DNA of 38,719 nucleotides from Bacteroidota bacterium. GTDB lineage: Bacteria; Bacteroidota; Ignavibacteria; Kapaibacteriales; NICIL-2. The stretch spans positions 1 to 38,719 of the forward strand of contig JAIBAE010000038.1 in assembly GCA_019695345.1 (NCBI GenBank), given 5' to 3'. Both the position numbers and the translations under genes were made by a program. Positions 32,798 to 38,719 of the stretch are shown piece after piece. Below the pieces are notes generated by a model. The model saw only the letters and a list, made by a program, of their open reading frames with translations, had not been told where the DNA came from and did no database searches. How positions within the stretch are numbered: the stretch's first letter is position 1; the number at the start of each line of letters is the position of its first letter.

Positions 32798-33064
32798 AAT
32801 CCCCCAAGAATATATTGATACAGCATTCAGTTTATGGAGTTTCCGGACGATACTTCGAGGTGGTAAGGAACACCCGATTTGTTACGGTGGCAGGCGGAGC
32901 GTTGTGCAATAATGTATCCGGTACGTGCGTCAAAACGGGTGGAAACAAAAACAAAGCGGATTGTGCGTTTACTATTACTATATTAGTACACAGTGAAGGA
33001 ACACCGTTGTTGTGGTTTTCAGATATCTGCGTACTATTTGCTCATTTTATTGAGAGAGCCGGTT

Positions 33065-35587
33065 ATGGAAGGAAATTTTTCAAATAGAGTTCAGGATGTT
33101 ATACGCCTAAGCCGCGAAGAAGCATTACGGTTGGGGCATGATTATATAGGTACGGAGCATTTGTTGCTTGGCATAATCCGCGAAGGCGAAGGAATTGCCG
33201 TTAAGATTTTACGTAATCTTGGCGTGGATTTGTTCAAACTGAAAAAGTCGATTGAGGATACCGTTCGTTCATCCAGCGGTACACTTACCATTGGCAATAT
33301 CCCTCTTACCAAACAAGCCGAAAAAGTTTTAAAGATTACATACTTAGAAGCAAAACTGTATAAATCGGATGTGATTGGTACAGAACATTTGTTGCTTTCG
33401 TTGCTTCGCGATGAAGATAACATTGCGGCACAGATTCTATCGCAGTTTAGCGTTAGTTACGATGCCGTGCGTAAAGAGTTAGATAACATTATTAGCGGTA
33501 AACCAAGTACACCTCCGCGCAGTGGCGAACGCGCACAAAGTGGTGGCGGAACTTCTCGCGGCTCTAAAAAAGCATCGGAAGAGCGTGTTAAAACTCCGGT
33601 GTTAGATAACTTTGGCCGCGATTTAACCAAACTTGCCGTTGAAGGAAAGTTAGACCCGGTTATTGGCCGCGATAAAGAAATTGAACGTGTAGCACAAGTG
33701 CTCTCGCGCCGTAAAAAGAATAACCCCGTGTTAATTGGCGAGCCCGGCGTTGGTAAAACTGCCGTTGTTGAAGGTTTGGCATTGCGCATTATAGAGAAAA
33801 AGGTTTCGCGTGTGTTGTTTGAAAAACGTATTGTTACGTTAGACCTTGCAGCATTGGTTGCAGGTACAAAATACCGCGGTCAGTTCGAGGAGCGCATGAA
33901 AGCCGTAATGAACGAACTTGAAAAAGCTAAAGATGTAATCTTATTTATTGATGAGTTACACACCATAGTTGGTGCAGGTGGCGCATCGGGTTCGTTAGAT
34001 GCATCGAATATGTTTAAGCCCGCACTGGCCCGTGGAGATATTCAATGTATTGGTGCTACAACATTAGATGAGTACCGCCAGTACATAGAAAAAGACGGCG
34101 CGTTGGATAGACGGTTCCAGAAGATTATGGTAGACCCACCAACAGCCGACGAAGCAATTCAGATTCTGAATAACATCAAAGACCGTTACGAAGAACACCA
34201 TGCAGTGCGTTATACCGATGAAGCTGTTCGCCAATGTGTGTTGCTTGCCGATAGATACATCACCGACCGTTTCTTGCCCGATAAAGCAATTGACGTGTTA
34301 GATGAAGCAGGCGCACGTGTACATCTCTCTAACATTAGTGTTCCGAAGGAAATCTTAGACCTTGAAGCTAAAATTGAAGATGCTCGCGGACAAAAAAACA
34401 ACGTTGTAAAAAGCCAAAACTTCGAGGAAGCAGCTCGCCTACGCGATTTAGAAAAACGTTTGCAACAAGAACTTGAAACAGCAAAAGAAGATTGGGAAAC
34501 TAAATCTGCCGAAATGGTATTTACTGTGGACGAAGAAAATGTTGCAACGGTAGTTGCTAGCATGACTGGCATTCCGGTAAACAGAATTGCGGAATCGGAA
34601 TCAGCGAAGTTGCTAAAGATGGCAGAAGAATTAAAAGGCCAAGTAATTGGTCAGGACGAAGCAGTAGAACATTTGGCAAAAGCAATACGCCGCGCACGTG
34701 CCGGACTAAAAGATCCCGCACGTCCAATTGGCTCGTTTATGTTTTTAGGTCCAACCGGTGTTGGTAAAACTGAACTTGCAAAAGCGTTAGCGCGCTACAT
34801 GTTTGATACCGAAGATTCAATCATTCGCATAGACATGAGCGAGTACATGGAGAAATTCAGTGTATCGCGTTTAGTTGGTGCACCTCCGGGATATGTTGGT
34901 TACGAAGAAGGCGGACAGTTAACCGAAAAAGTACGCCGCAAACCGTACAGCATTGTGCTACTCGATGAAATCGAAAAAGCACATCCCGATGTATTCAACA
35001 TCTTACTGCAAGTGTTCGATGACGGTATCTTAACCGATGGCTTAGGTCGCCGTATTGATTTTAAGAACACCATTATCATCATGACATCGAACGCCGGTGT
35101 ACGCGATGTAAAAGCAGGCGGACGCATTGGCTTTAGCAGCAGCAACTCAACCGAAGACAAATACGAAGCAATGAAAGCAACGGTAGAAGAATCCATGAAA
35201 CGACTCTTCAATCCGGAGTTCTTAAATCGTATCGATGATTACGTTATCTTCCGTCATCTTTCCAAAGACGACATCTACAAAATCATCGACTTACAACTTG
35301 CTAAACTGCTCAAACGCATGGAGCAAAATGGTATCTCGTTGGAACTTGCTAAATCTGCAAAAGACTTCTTAGCCGATAAGGGCTACGACGACAAATTTGG
35401 CGCACGTCCGCTACGCCGGGCAATACAACGCCATATAGAAGATGAGCTTGCCGAAGAAATGTTAAAGGGCACCTTTAAGGAAGGCAGTAAAGTTAAAGTG
35501 AAGTTCGATAAAAAAACAAACAAACTCCACTTTACTGAATCCAAGCCCAAAGACACCGAAGAAATTGCAGAAGCAGACGTAGAATAA
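33065..35587 (+). CDS. clpC: ClpC, Clp/Hsp100 AAA+ unfoldase
   Basis: This is an 840-residue ClpC. The start ATG 33065 ([20 protein letters not shown]) is the normal family start; the open frame runs back to 32993 without family likeness. Domains: two Clp_N repeats (about 1-145; [16 protein letters not shown], then [16 protein letters not shown]); AAA1 with Walker A GEPGVGKT and Walker [11 protein letters not shown]; a middle UVR domain ([21 protein letters not shown]) that marks ClpC; AAA2 with GPTGVGKT and [13 protein letters not shown]; and the C-terminal D2-small domain. It works with ClpP and the adaptor ClpS to unfold proteins. A terminator follows at 35612. It is the last chromosomal gene before the cassette array. 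Confidence 0.93.
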
Positions 35588-35647: not shown

Positions 35648-35709
35648 TGCTATCGCAGTACGGCACCAAACGGTTTCTATAACACAACATGTATCTGCCG
35701 AAGAGAACC
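35647..35709 (+). repeat. R1 repeat, copy 15
   Basis: TATGCTATCGCAGTACGGCACC to ATCTGCCGAAGAGAAC. It starts at the T tail of the clpC terminator; 160 bases further on the cassette array begins. Confidence 0.7.
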
Positions 35710-35795
35710 GCAAGCAAGTAACACCATTGTTCGCGAGAGAAGTGTTGTTATGTTTGTAAAAAGAACTAAAAAATAAAAGGAAATGAATAATCCAA

Positions 35796-35851
35796 AAAAC
35801 TTCCTCCTATTTCCGGAAAACAGCAGATAGGAGGAAGTTTTTAAGAAAAAA
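35796..35851 (+). repeat. Three-part inverted repeat left of the cassette array
   Basis: AAAACTTCCTCCTAT (35796-35810) pairs perfectly with ATAGGAGGAAGTTTT (35827-35841), a 15-bp stem with T after it. The second arm can also pair with a third piece, AAAAAACTTCCTC (about 35846-35858). It is thus a switch-like pair of alternative hairpins. It may be a terminator or attenuator, or part of the attachment site for the first cassette. Confidence 0.6.
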
Positions 35852-35867
35852 CTTCCTCTATAAACGA

Positions 35868-35876
35868 GTTATAGCC
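35868..35876 (+). other. Left boundary of the cassette array (integron attachment point)
   Basis: GTTATAGCC with the expected crossover between G35868 and T35869. It is the reverse complement of GGCTATAAC at 36333-36341, the R'' box of the first cassette's attC. The site to its left has no integrase gene and no complete attC that I can fold, so it is either a degenerate attC or a non-attI insertion point. Confidence 0.65.
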
Positions 35877-35903
35877 AATTTTAAGACGAGCCCGACTGAA
35901 TAA

Positions 35904-36398
35904 ATGACCAAGCAAGAACAAATATATAATTGGTTGACAACAGGACTTGAACAGCCTGCTGACAAACTTTCGGAAATATTTTATTTCGATAAACGAGACA
36001 ATGAATTTTTCTCAATTCTTGTAACGGACTACTTTATGTTTGACGAAAACCTGAATGTAGCCAAAGACACCACAACTTCATATTCAAAAGAAAATCTTGA
36101 AAGTCTCGTTGACAGAATAAAGAGAATTGAAAATAAAGACGCTTCAATTATTTCCTTGCCAAGACTTGGAAACTTAAAAAGCACAACAGACACCGATTTT
36201 ATTAATCAGCAAGTAGACAGTTTTCTGAACTTAAATTCAATTAGCATAGAGACTGCAACAATATGGGAAGTTGAAGAAACTGGGACAATAACTATAGACT
36301 TAAAAAATGACAATGATGAGAAGAAAAAAACTGGCTATAACAGCACCTTGCCAAAAGCGGGGCGTTCGTGGTGGCAGAAACTTTTCAGCTCCGAATAA
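35904..36398 (+). CDS. Cassette 1 ORF: unknown 164-residue protein, C-terminus encoded by the attC site
   Basis: This is a 164-residue cytoplasmic protein with no signal or membrane segment. The start is ATG 35904, 35 bases inside the cassette. The body is acidic and mixed alpha/beta (MTKQEQIYNWLTTGLEQPAD..., FFSILVTDYFMFDENL), with no motif I recognise. The frame runs into the attC site (starting 36333), so the last 22 residues (TGYNSTLPKAGRSWWQ... ) are encoded by the recombination site. AT-rich codon use unlike the neighbouring chromosome genes. Being in a cassette, it is probably accessory and exchangeable; its function cannot be told. Confidence 0.6.
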   Translation: MTKQEQIYNWLTTGLEQPADKLSEIFYFDKRDNEFFSILVTDYFMFDENLNVAKDTTTSYSKENLESLVDRIKRIENKDASIISLPRLGNLKSTTDTDFINQQVDSFLNLNSISIETATIWEVEETGTITIDLKNDNDEKKKTGYNSTLPKAGRSWWQKLFSSE

Positions 36399-36468
36399 AC
36401 CTTAGTGCTAGCTTGAAAGGTCGGTGCTTCGAAATCCCCGCCTTTGGCAAGCTGCAAAACGTTATGCC
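36333..36468 (+). other. attC site of cassette 1
   Basis: R'' GGCTATAAC (36333-36341), then CCTTGCCAAAAGCGGGG, a variable middle, CCCCGCCTTTGGCAAG, and R' with crossover at G36461/T36462 (AACGTTATGCC). The arms pair imperfectly over about 25 bp, as attC sites do, with a large middle. R'' is the reverse complement of the cassette's own first bases (GTTATAGCC at 35868). Length about 136 bp. Confidence 0.85.
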
Positions 36469-36474
36469 CCATTT

Positions 36475-36972
36475 ATGGACACTGACACATACATAATAAG
36501 ACATTGCAAAAAATGTAAGCACAGACAACGATATGACTATCCGAAAAGAGAGGTAGCGTTCGGACTTCACGATGACGATCCATTTTTATGTTCTAAATGC
36601 AATTACGACAGCTCAGACTACGGCGAAGTTCATTGCAACAAACTTGACGACGATATTTTGTCTGAGTGGATAATAAATCCTGACGTTTATTTATTAGAAC
36701 AAGACGAGGAGTTATTTCTGGCAGACATTAATTACTTAGACCTCTTACTTAAATATCTTGACGACAAAAAGGCTCTCCCAGCAAAGAAAATTATTTTACT
36801 TGAAGCACTTTGTGTTATTGTTTATGACATTATAAAAGACGACAAGGACAAAGAGCATTTAAATAGACTCAAGGACGAGCTTCTAAAAAGAAAACAATTA
36901 CTTCACGACTTTAAAGACTCAATCATGGCATATTTAACGGACGTTGTTTACCCATTTTTGGGACTTAAATAA
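36475..36972 (+). CDS. Cassette 2 ORF: zinc-ribbon-like protein, unknown function
   Basis: This is a 165-residue protein. ATG 36475 lies 13 bases inside the cassette and is preferred to GTG 36424, which lies in the attC site. The N-terminus has two CxxC pairs (CKKC at residues 10-13 and CSKC near 39-42), a likely zinc ribbon. The rest is helical and acidic with Leu-rich stretches (LLLKYLDDKKALPAKKIILLEALCVIVYDI). No catalytic motif or membrane segment. The gene uses the AT-rich codon style of the other cassettes. Family not recognised; perhaps a DNA or protein binder (inference from the zinc ribbon only). Confidence 0.65.
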   Translation: MDTDTYIIRHCKKCKHRQRYDYPKREVAFGLHDDDPFLCSKCNYDSSDYGEVHCNKLDDDILSEWIINPDVYLLEQDEELFLADINYLDLLLKYLDDKKALPAKKIILLEALCVIVYDIIKDDKDKEHLNRLKDELLKRKQLLHDFKDSIMAYLTDVVYPFLGLK

Positions 36973-36975
36973 ACG

Positions 36976-37156
36976 AGGCATAACAGCAAGCCATGGCGCA
37001 ATGCGGGCGGACATGCAAGGCTTTTGCAAATTTAAGGTCGCTTCGCGAATTGACATTTTCATTTTGCAAAAGTCTAATAAACACATATCTTTATAAAAAC
37101 GTTTCGGCAGACAGTGTTTCATAAACGCACTGCGCAATCTTGCGAAACGTTACCTG
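36976..37156 (+). other. attC site of cassette 2
   Basis: R'' GGCATAAC at 36976-36983 is the reverse complement of the cassette 2 start GTTATGCC (36461). The right end GAAACGTTACCTGC has its crossover at G37149/T37150. The arms GCAAGCCATGGCGCAATGCG and CGCACTGCGCAATCTTGC pair imperfectly. The middle is long (about 180 bp in all) and includes a further small hairpin. Confidence 0.75.
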
Positions 37157-37246
37157 CAATGCTATGGCGACACTGCTAACATCAAACTGAGTACCATTGA
37201 ACGACCTTTTTATAAATACAGCGATTAAAGAAATTGATGAACCGAC

Positions 37247-37852
37247 TTGGGAATCACTAAACAGTATTTAGAAGTTCATGCTGTTGTTCGTGTTGACAAC
37301 AAGCCGACTATTGCAAGACTTGAAACCGAATATGATGAGGACAGTGCTATCGTTTATTTTCCAATTCAAGACGAAAGTTTTTTCCTTGCTGTTTGCGTTA
37401 GCAAAAACGAACTACCCGAAGTGACAGGAATTTATTTTCAATCAGGCAACAGAGTTTATTTTCGTGCGACATCAGACAAACTTTCTTTTGACGAGTTAGC
37501 AGCAAAGACAAGATTAAAACCTATTGATGGTTGGAACAACGGTGAGCCGATGAAATCAAACCCAACTAACAATTATAAGTTTAGTGCTTTACATTTCAAT
37601 CCATTTCCAGACGAGGCATACAACATGGAATATAAAATGAAACTTTTGCTAACTGAATTGGAGAAAGACAGAAAAGGAATTAAAGAACTTGTTGAAAGTG
37701 CAAATGGATATATCTCTATTGCTTCATATCGTTACATAGACCAGTTTGGTGGAATCCACCTTGACAAAGAATTAGTAAAACGACTTAACGACATCGGACT
37801 TGAAGTTGATTTTGATATTTATGTTGGCGGAAATCCTTTAATTTGTGATTGA
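37247..37852 (+). CDS. Cassette 3 ORF: DUF4279-like protein
   Basis: This is a 201-residue protein. The start TTG 37247 is the only start in this frame before the body; ATG 37237 is in another frame and stops after seven codons, so the true 5' end is unsure. The C-terminal about 120 residues match the DUF4279 layout: ELAAKTRLKPIDGWNNGEP, then a helical stretch, then YISIASYRYIDQFGGIHLDKELVKRLNDIGLEVDFDIYV. DUF4279 proteins are small cytoplasmic proteins, several of them thought to be immunity-type partners; this is not shown here. The first 80 residues form an extra beta-rich part. It is the gene of the third cassette (37150-38086). Confidence 0.6.
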   Translation: MGITKQYLEVHAVVRVDNKPTIARLETEYDEDSAIVYFPIQDESFFLAVCVSKNELPEVTGIYFQSGNRVYFRATSDKLSFDELAAKTRLKPIDGWNNGEPMKSNPTNNYKFSALHFNPFPDEAYNMEYKMKLLLTELEKDRKGIKELVESANGYISIASYRYIDQFGGIHLDKELVKRLNDIGLEVDFDIYVGGNPLICD

Positions 37853-37941
37853 TAATAAACGACAGAGCAATGAATGTAAATCACCTTGAACAAACTTCCT
37901 ACGAACTTCAAACAGTTGTGCTCCGAACGAACAGCAGCACT

Positions 37942-38094
37942 GCAGGTAACATAAGATTAAAAGAAATTTTAAAAAAGGGGGCATTGACCGTAAGACGAAC
38001 AGTGGTGCATCTAACAAACTGTTGTGGTTATACAAACAGTCGTGCTTGTAATCCCCCTTTTTTAAAACTTCTTTAATTCCTTCTTTGTTAGCAG
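37942..38094 (+). other. attC site of cassette 3
   Basis: R'' GCAGGTAAC at 37942-37950 is the reverse complement of the cassette 3 start GTTACCTGC (37149). The long arms AAATTTTAAAAAAGGGGG and CCCCCTTTTTTAAAACTT pair almost fully. Crossover at G38087/T38088 (TTTGTTAGCAG). About 153 bp. Confidence 0.85.
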
Positions 38095-38101
38095 TAATAG
38101 T

Positions 38102-38560
38102 ATGAAGACAGTAATCAAGTGGACATTCAAAATATTAGCAGGACTTTTTGCTGTAGTGTTCTTATGTGTTCTGACCTATTATAGTTACTACAAATGGCGC
38201 CAGACTAGAACTTATGAAGAAAAAATAACTGTGACAGCGTACTATATGAAATATGCATGTGGTGACTGCTCCGTTGACATGAAAGTGCAAGCCGTGGATA
38301 ATCCGAAATATAATTTTATTATCGGGCAAGACATATTTCCAACACCTAAGACAAAAACGTTTGAAGAACTTTGCGATTTTATTGGTTCAATTGGTTACGA
38401 GTCATCAACTGGACCTGATTATATTGAAGAATCATTTACATTAATTGGACGCTTGCATAAGCATTCACACGGCTTGCCAATATTTGAATGTTCAGAAGCA
38501 CCATTCTTTACAGTAGACAAAATCAAATACGGAACGAATGGAAAGTGGAAAGACTTTTAA
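38102..38560 (+). CDS. Cassette 4 ORF: small membrane-anchored protein, unknown function
   Basis: This is a 152-residue protein with an N-terminal signal anchor (residues about 7-29, ILAGLFAVVFLCVLTYYSYY), so it is probably in the inner membrane with the body in the periplasm. The body has two Cys (ACGDCS, near 53-56), which may form a disulfide or bind metal, and a mixed alpha/beta pattern (FEELCDFIGSIGYESSTGPDYIEESFTLIGRLHKHSHGLP). Start ATG 38102, 14 bases inside the cassette. Low GC. Family not recognised; the cassette setting says it is accessory. Confidence 0.6.
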   Translation: MKTVIKWTFKILAGLFAVVFLCVLTYYSYYKWRQTRTYEEKITVTAYYMKYACGDCSVDMKVQAVDNPKYNFIIGQDIFPTPKTKTFEELCDFIGSIGYESSTGPDYIEESFTLIGRLHKHSHGLPIFECSEAPFFTVDKIKYGTNGKWKDF

Positions 38561-38577
38561 TGACGATATAAGAAGAA

Positions 38578-38719
38578 CTATTACTGCTAACTGGCGTAGC
38601 TGTTGCACAACTACCTAAAGTTTTACGTTGGCTGTATAGTGCGCTGTAGCATTATAGTTTTTATGTAGTGTGTTATAGCACATAATACACGTGGAAGAGT
38701 AAAAAACGATGCATTTACG
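38578..38719 (+). other. attC site of cassette 4, right boundary not resolved
   Basis: CTATTACTGCTAAC (38578-38591) is a 14/14 reverse complement of the cassette 4 start GTTAGCAGTAATAG (38087-38100), the R'' box signature. Possible right ends are ACGTTGGCTG (38625-38634) or GTGTTATAGC (38670-38679). A hairpin of the type GTAG(c)TGT...ACA(a)CTAC lies at 38596-38615. The array probably continues past the window. Confidence 0.65.

Follow-up and report, generated by a model that had tools for sequence, protein, structure and literature searches.

Four consecutive gene cassettes of the integron type close the contig JAIBAE010000038.1 of a Kapaibacteriales bacterium (Bacteroidota; assembly GCA_019695345.1) with no integrase gene beside them, and the question raised by this locus is which recombination system put them there. 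The window analyzed here is the entire contig (G000:C44:1-38719, 38719 bp), and the source genome comprises 4.56 Mb in 163 contigs. The data presented below make it very likely that this array belongs to an integron lineage found across the Bacteroidota, in which the integrase, here called patch-less, is devoid of the I2/patch-III insertion.

Cassette junctions

The array runs from position 35869 to the contig end, and its four cassettes are co-directional, with one main forward open reading frame (ORF) in each. Each cassette opens with 7–13 bases that are perfectly reverse-complementary to the R'' box of its own attC. The junctions, in which the bar marks the crossover, read CTATAAACGAG|TTATAGCC (35869), AAAACG|TTATGCC (36462), GAAACG|TTACCTGC (37150) and TCTTTG|TTAGCAG (38088), and the corresponding start/R'' pairs are TTATAGCC/GGCTATAA, TTATGCC/GGCATAA, TTACCTGC/GCAGGTAA and TTAGCAGTAATAG/CTATTACTGCTAA. 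This complementarity is the circular-cassette signature of an integron, and the earlier note on this DNA, which had reported the four pairs and one ORF per cassette in the same direction, proved right in both respects.

A mechanical finder, which looks for a G|TT word of at least 8 bases, its reverse complement before AAC and, after these, a stem closed by a further G|TT, recovered cassettes 1 and 3, the chance level being 0.1 hits per strand in Markov dinucleotide resamples of the whole window. Cassette 2 falls below its threshold because the match has only 7 bases, and cassette 4 was missed because the contig ends before its R'. The right edge of the window is an assembly break within attC4, a repeated site of which near-identical copies also terminate contigs C160 and C7.

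One cassette gene was present at two loci of the source genome, one on contig C160 (G000:C160:12853-13443, L119), behind an attI without integrase (orphan attI), and the other on contig C41 (46455-46950, L123), with 97% identity over 474 bp. Homology sets in precisely at G|TT and ends a short way beyond R'', and the attC interiors differ, which suggests that a given gene can exchange one such interior for another. Such swapping bears on how species-specific attCs arise. Taken together with the perfect R''/start matches of the window, the two copies point to recent movement. Assembly of the array by insertion of circular cassettes, as the earlier note had proposed, is thus supported by the exact junctions, by this two-locus cassette with homology from G|TT and by the covariance-model matches described next.

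Structure of the attC sites

An attC covariance model was built from 57 attCs, all of them from arrays of other genomes. When applied to the window it detected attC1 (90.3 bits, E=2e-20) and attC3 (24.9 bits, E=2.6e-4), and 12 sites at E<1e-6 were found in the source genome. The family is uniform in length (122–130 nt for the middle 80%, typically around 128 nt), and its consensus contains 21 pairs, with double-sided compensatory changes in 17 of them. As in other integrons, the sites are imperfect palindromes with R and L boxes and a folded bottom strand. The consensus shows a 4:0 bulge beside the R stem, mostly TTTT or TTCC, and a 1:1 C.A/G mismatch, and it has no single-sided extrahelical base, the feature of canonical attCs that is read by I2.

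Folds were calculated as minimum-energy structures with RNA parameters, in such a way that single sites can differ from the consensus. The bottom strands of attC1 to attC3 fold and attC4 folds weakly over its visible part, so that the previous statement that all the attCs fold applies in full to three of them. A search against Rfam gave no attC match, as expected.

A patch-less integrase in the source genome

The earlier note had advised looking for intI in the full genome. No canonical IntI was found there at the strict threshold, but one patch-less integrase was: the best TIGR02249 match is a 372-aa protein on contig C37, with 204 bits against a cut-off of 265. Within around 100 bp of its stop codon come an attI-like core and the start of a cassette, after which the contig ends. 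The I2/patch-III insertion is wholly absent from the 19 patch-less integrases aligned (the C37 protein and 18 homologues) and present in all six IntI included, three from order-level relatives and three from plasmids, IntI1 among them. The C37 integrase therefore lacks the additional domain around patch III that is specific to IntI in canonical integrons, and residues 211-243 of the IntI4 structure (2a3v) have no counterpart in it.

A tree of 31 sequences places the patch-less proteins in one cluster (90/85), sister to IntI (100/99) and apart from Xer-like proteins, with moderate support, a midpoint root and long-branched outgroups. Other Xer-like recombinases of the source genome are encoded on contigs C107 and C144. 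XerA is a dif-site resolvase. In both sequence and fold the integrase is closest to archaeal-type XerA/XerC (NF040815), which also has no I2 insertion, and the AlphaFold model of the integrase adopts a Xer/IntI fold (predicted local distance difference test 83, predicted template modelling score 0.54) with 4a8e, 5hxy and 2a3v as nearest structures. Unlike XerA, the integrase has attI and attC cassettes as neighbours, and its sequence closes with an IntI-like SP(L/F)D motif.

An N-terminal extension of around 65 aa is often present. At residues 1–66 of the integrase (L015:7625-7822) it shows the motif GA.WS..LK.WH.PDT and is predicted to form a beta-rich domain, possibly a DNA-binding module. 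Among 20 members, 7 gave a weak Pfam match to DUF5710 at the integrase N-terminus (best E=0.0012), a resemblance that can serve as a lead; a HARP-like domain had been suspected at this end, and Pfam gives no HARP.

Linkage of integrase, attI and cassettes across genomes

A scan of 84,980 genomes yielded 293 relatives of the integrase, and the best 80 loci were fetched, mostly from Flavobacterium, Pedobacter and other Bacteroidota. In these loci the finder gave 137 matches in 326 kb downstream of the integrase versus 2 in 576 kb upstream, and at least one downstream cassette was detected in 47 of the 80. In 38 loci no more than 130 bp separate the integrase stop from the first junction, which has the consensus TATAWACWAG|TTA. 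Of the 72 loci that could be tested, 53 have the attI motif TATAWAYNAG|TT at most 150 bp from the stop, the background rate being 0.0004. Hence, an attI adjoining the integrase and cassettes inserted at G|TT, as in any integron, are found in the family and on C37, relatives having complete cassettes next to the same integrase type; the window has an orphan attI. Among 61 order-level genomes, attCs were detected in 10 of the 11 with a patch-less integrase and in 12 of the 50 without it (Fisher p=6e-5).

Two further observations were made in this survey. A second, shorter type of patch-less integrase was seen near arrays in three genomes (G037, L112 and L113; G051, L117; G025, L120), in divergent orientation, as in class 1 integrons. 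In addition, contigs L155 and L180, with a Bacteroidota-type integrase, belong to metagenome-assembled genomes labelled Rhizobium and Bifidobacterium breve, probably through binning or naming errors.

Orphan attI sites

The left end of the array meets clpC and no integrase is found there, in agreement with the earlier note. What lies at this boundary resembles the attI located around 100 bp behind the integrase in relatives. In the architecture common in the family, the arm of a hairpin recurs behind it as a direct repeat. The window site is built likewise, with hairpin arms AACTTCCTCCTAT (35798-35810) and ATAGGAGGAAGTT (35827-35839), a direct repeat AACTTCCTC (35850-35858) and a core TATAAACGAG in which the crossover falls between 35868 and 35869, the array start reading CTATAAACGAG|TT. 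The short form TAAACGAG|TT is uninformative alone, with 29 genome matches versus 22 for a reversed control. An integrase beyond the right edge, the other option left by the earlier note, is unlikely because the only full-length member of the family sits on C37, beside its own attI and cassette; moreover, integrases of this type precede attI, and one belonging to the array would fall between clpC and 35869.

The leader that precedes the array is repeated in the source genome, and a sequence search located its attI-specific part at ten loci, on C44, C160, C13, C95, C92 (two) and C41 (four). Cassette-like sequence follows each of the copies that were read, and no integrase remnant was found beside the fetched ones. 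The full hairpin-plus-repeat attI is present at three loci; at the others the hairpin is missing, apparently by deletion between the direct repeats. On contig C92 two orphan attIs face each other on opposite strands around 1 kb apart, each with its own cassette (G000:C92:26363-27573). Several orphan attIs per genome would mean that an integron need not be a single locus. Such dispersion is not general, as only one attI was found in a complete Flavobacterium chromosome.

The complete genome G017 also carries orphan attIs, one of them after the frameshifted remnant of an integrase. Three others lie within 16 kb (L279, G017:C1:544080-559730), each directly after the same transposase end of insertion sequence (IS) type joined to an integrase 3' end. 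Their position beside broken integrases indicates that attI copies can arise from broken integrons.

Promoters of Bacteroidota type have the consensus TTG...TAnnTTTG. The site TTG-N19-TATGTTTG of the leader is presumably one of them. The intergenic motif GCTATCGCnnnnCCGCACC(AAAC), present at window position 35649, is very abundant, with around 84 copies across 356 kb of loci from the source genome. It often has TTGTTCGTGA..TATGTTTG after it, which gives it the look of a promoter-bearing repeat spread over the whole genome.

Alternative explanations

Several observations weigh against assigning the window array to the patch-less lineage. Of the covariance search recommended in the earlier note, only attC1 and attC3 gave clear matches, attC2 being weak (8 bits, E=3.4) and attC4 not found. 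Several older arrays of the source genome show R''/start pairs that do not match perfectly, and 12 relatives have attC matches with no patch-less integrase detected, most of them only a few, but many in G030, G021 and G042. Finally, the attI on C37 (..TATAAGGTAG|TT) is unlike the orphan attIs (..TATAAACRAG|TT), so that these arrays may be the work of another integrase that has since been lost. The C37 protein is therefore a candidate builder of the window array.

In another reading, which we find unlikely although it retains some weight, the orphan-attI arrays are dead relics, their attI regions having been duplicated together with decayed or IS-interrupted integrons and cassette exchange being over. 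The G017 sites beside broken integrases and the mismatched pairs of the older arrays would be expected in that case. However, the perfect matches at all four window cassettes and the nearly identical copies on C160 and C41 imply recent movement, and no integrase remnants were found alongside the fetched orphan attIs of the source genome.

The earlier note had classified the array as a cluster of attC sites lacking integrase (CALIN). By the definition of IntegronFinder (PMC9024848) the label applies, since the window has at least two attCs within 4 kb and no IntI nearby, and CALINs are common and inflated by draft genomes, as stated in the same source. It is nonetheless incomplete, as the array begins at a recognizable attI and a related patch-less integrase gene exists in the same genome. 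An ordinary CALIN, that is, a decayed canonical integron or cassettes placed at secondary sites by an outside IntI, with the patch-less integrase as a bystander, is in our opinion quite improbable. Canonical IntI does occur in the relatives G001, G013 and G021, the last one also with R1 attCs. By contrast, the source genome has no IntI above the cut-off, and dozens of genomes have a patch-less integrase around 100 bp or less from attI and cassettes. The canonical array of G001, from the same taxonomic family as the source genome, has different attCs, of 56 nt and with two extrahelical bases, and neither G001 nor G013 has R1 attCs despite their canonical IntI. The left boundary, moreover, is an attI and not a random secondary site. 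Given an integrase of the matching family without the IntI patch, the window array is probably not the leftover of a canonical integron.

That the arrays are non-autonomous transposons with terminal inverted repeats, moving attI and cassettes around the chromosome, is hardly credible, because the inverted GCTATCGC..CGCACC copies that flank several of them occur around 84 times in the 356 kb, about once per 4 kb, irrespective of arrays, as a generic intergenic repeat.

Proposed mechanism and relation to known integrons

We propose that the patch-less integrase would recombine the folded bottom-strand attC of a circular cassette into the double-stranded attI core TATAAACRAG|TT, the acting enzyme in the source genome being probably the C37 protein, in trans. 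The hairpin mark that it reads would differ from the one read by IntI. Cassettes would be shuffled by attC x attC recombination. The window array starts at an orphan promoter-plus-attI module, of which the chromosome carries about ten at scattered positions, so that cassettes are held, and probably expressed, at several loci. The sequence data show structure, linkage and conservation, and we infer the catalysis by the patch-less integrase, its trans action on orphan attIs and the expression from the leader promoter.

By its anatomy the system is an integron, and it fails one defining feature of the accepted integrase definition. It shares with the sedentary chromosomal integrons of Vibrio, Xanthomonas and Treponema a tyrosine recombinase gene with an adjacent attI and G|TT crossover, co-directional single-ORF cassettes, folded attCs with R/L boxes and an attC repeated in one genome, similar to the Vibrio cholerae repeat (VCR). 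It differs from them in the absence of the I2/patch-III insertion, in the N-terminal extension often carried by the integrase, in attCs with a 4:0 bulge next to the R box and no consensus extrahelical bases, and in the many orphan attIs of one genome.

In integron surveys the I2/patch insertion is what defines the integrase (PMC2426708; PMC9668308), so that a large reservoir of Bacteroidota cassettes would be filed as CALINs or missed. The domain was reported to be necessary by Messier and Roy 2001, as cited in PMC2426708. For the integron-like subgroup of Smyshlyaev et al. 2021 (PMC8138268), the insertion is called essential for integron function, and the passages concerned do not link insertion-less members to attC arrays. 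No description of patch-less integron integrases with arrays was found in the open PubMed Central literature, preprints and most subscription papers being outside this search. Escudero et al. 2016 (PMC4792948) presented as a chicken-and-egg problem whether the I2 domain or the extrahelical bases of attC came first. That I2 and its known ligand are both missing here agrees with the co-evolution discussed by these authors, and a natural sister lineage without either, yet with attI and attC arrays, makes their question directly testable. On balance, it seems probable that patch-less integrases constitute a separate working lineage, sister to IntI, acting on attCs without extrahelical bases, either as an ancestral state or after coordinated loss of I2 and these bases, and serving many dispersed promoter-attI sites in trans in some Bacteroidota.

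Features of the locus and cassette genes

The features of the array and its surroundings are collected in Table 1.

Table 1. Coordinates of the array, its leader and its left neighbour in the window.
Feature	Position	Strand	Evidence or remarks
clpC-like AAA+ gene, left neighbour of the array	32993..35587	+	ORF; Walker/ClpC motifs in translation; no integrase between gene and array
Generic intergenic repeat GCTATCGC..CGGCACCAAAC, part of leader	35649..35689	+	Around one copy per 4 kb in own-genome loci
Promoter-like site TTG-N19-TATGTTTG	35727..35756	+	Sequence; conserved in other leader copies
Orphan attI-like site	35790..35868	+	Same architecture as attI behind family integrases; about ten genome copies
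Cassette 1	35869..36461	+	Junction/R'' match; finder
ORF of cassette 1, 164 aa	35904..36398	+	No family match
attC1, on the functional bottom strand; length typical of the family (129 nt)	36333..36467	-	Covariance model; fold
Cassette 2	36462..37149	+	7-base R''/start match
ORF of cassette 2, 164 aa, CxxC pairs	36478..36972	+	No family match
attC2, longer, atypical	36975..37156	-	R''/R' boxes and fold; weak in covariance model
Cassette 3	37150..38087	+	Junction/R'' match; finder
ORF of cassette 3, 201 aa	37247..37852	+	DUF4279 (PF14106), E=4e-12
attC3	37942..38094	-	Finder stem score 17; covariance model
Cassette 4, cut by contig end	38088..38719	+	13/13 match TTAGCAGTAATAG/CTATTACTGCTAA
ORF of cassette 4, 152 aa	38102..38560	+	Hydrophobic membrane-like N-terminal stretch; no family match
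attC4, incomplete, VCR-like repeat	38578..38719	-	Around 14 further genome copies; last attC of arrays inspected

A PADLOC search for a defence role of the cassette ORFs gave no match. A DUF4279 protein 41% identical to that of cassette 3 is encoded directly 5' of an attC in G051 (G051:C2, L288 8340-8936); as judged from this similarity, a DUF4279 cassette gene family is common to separate genomes.

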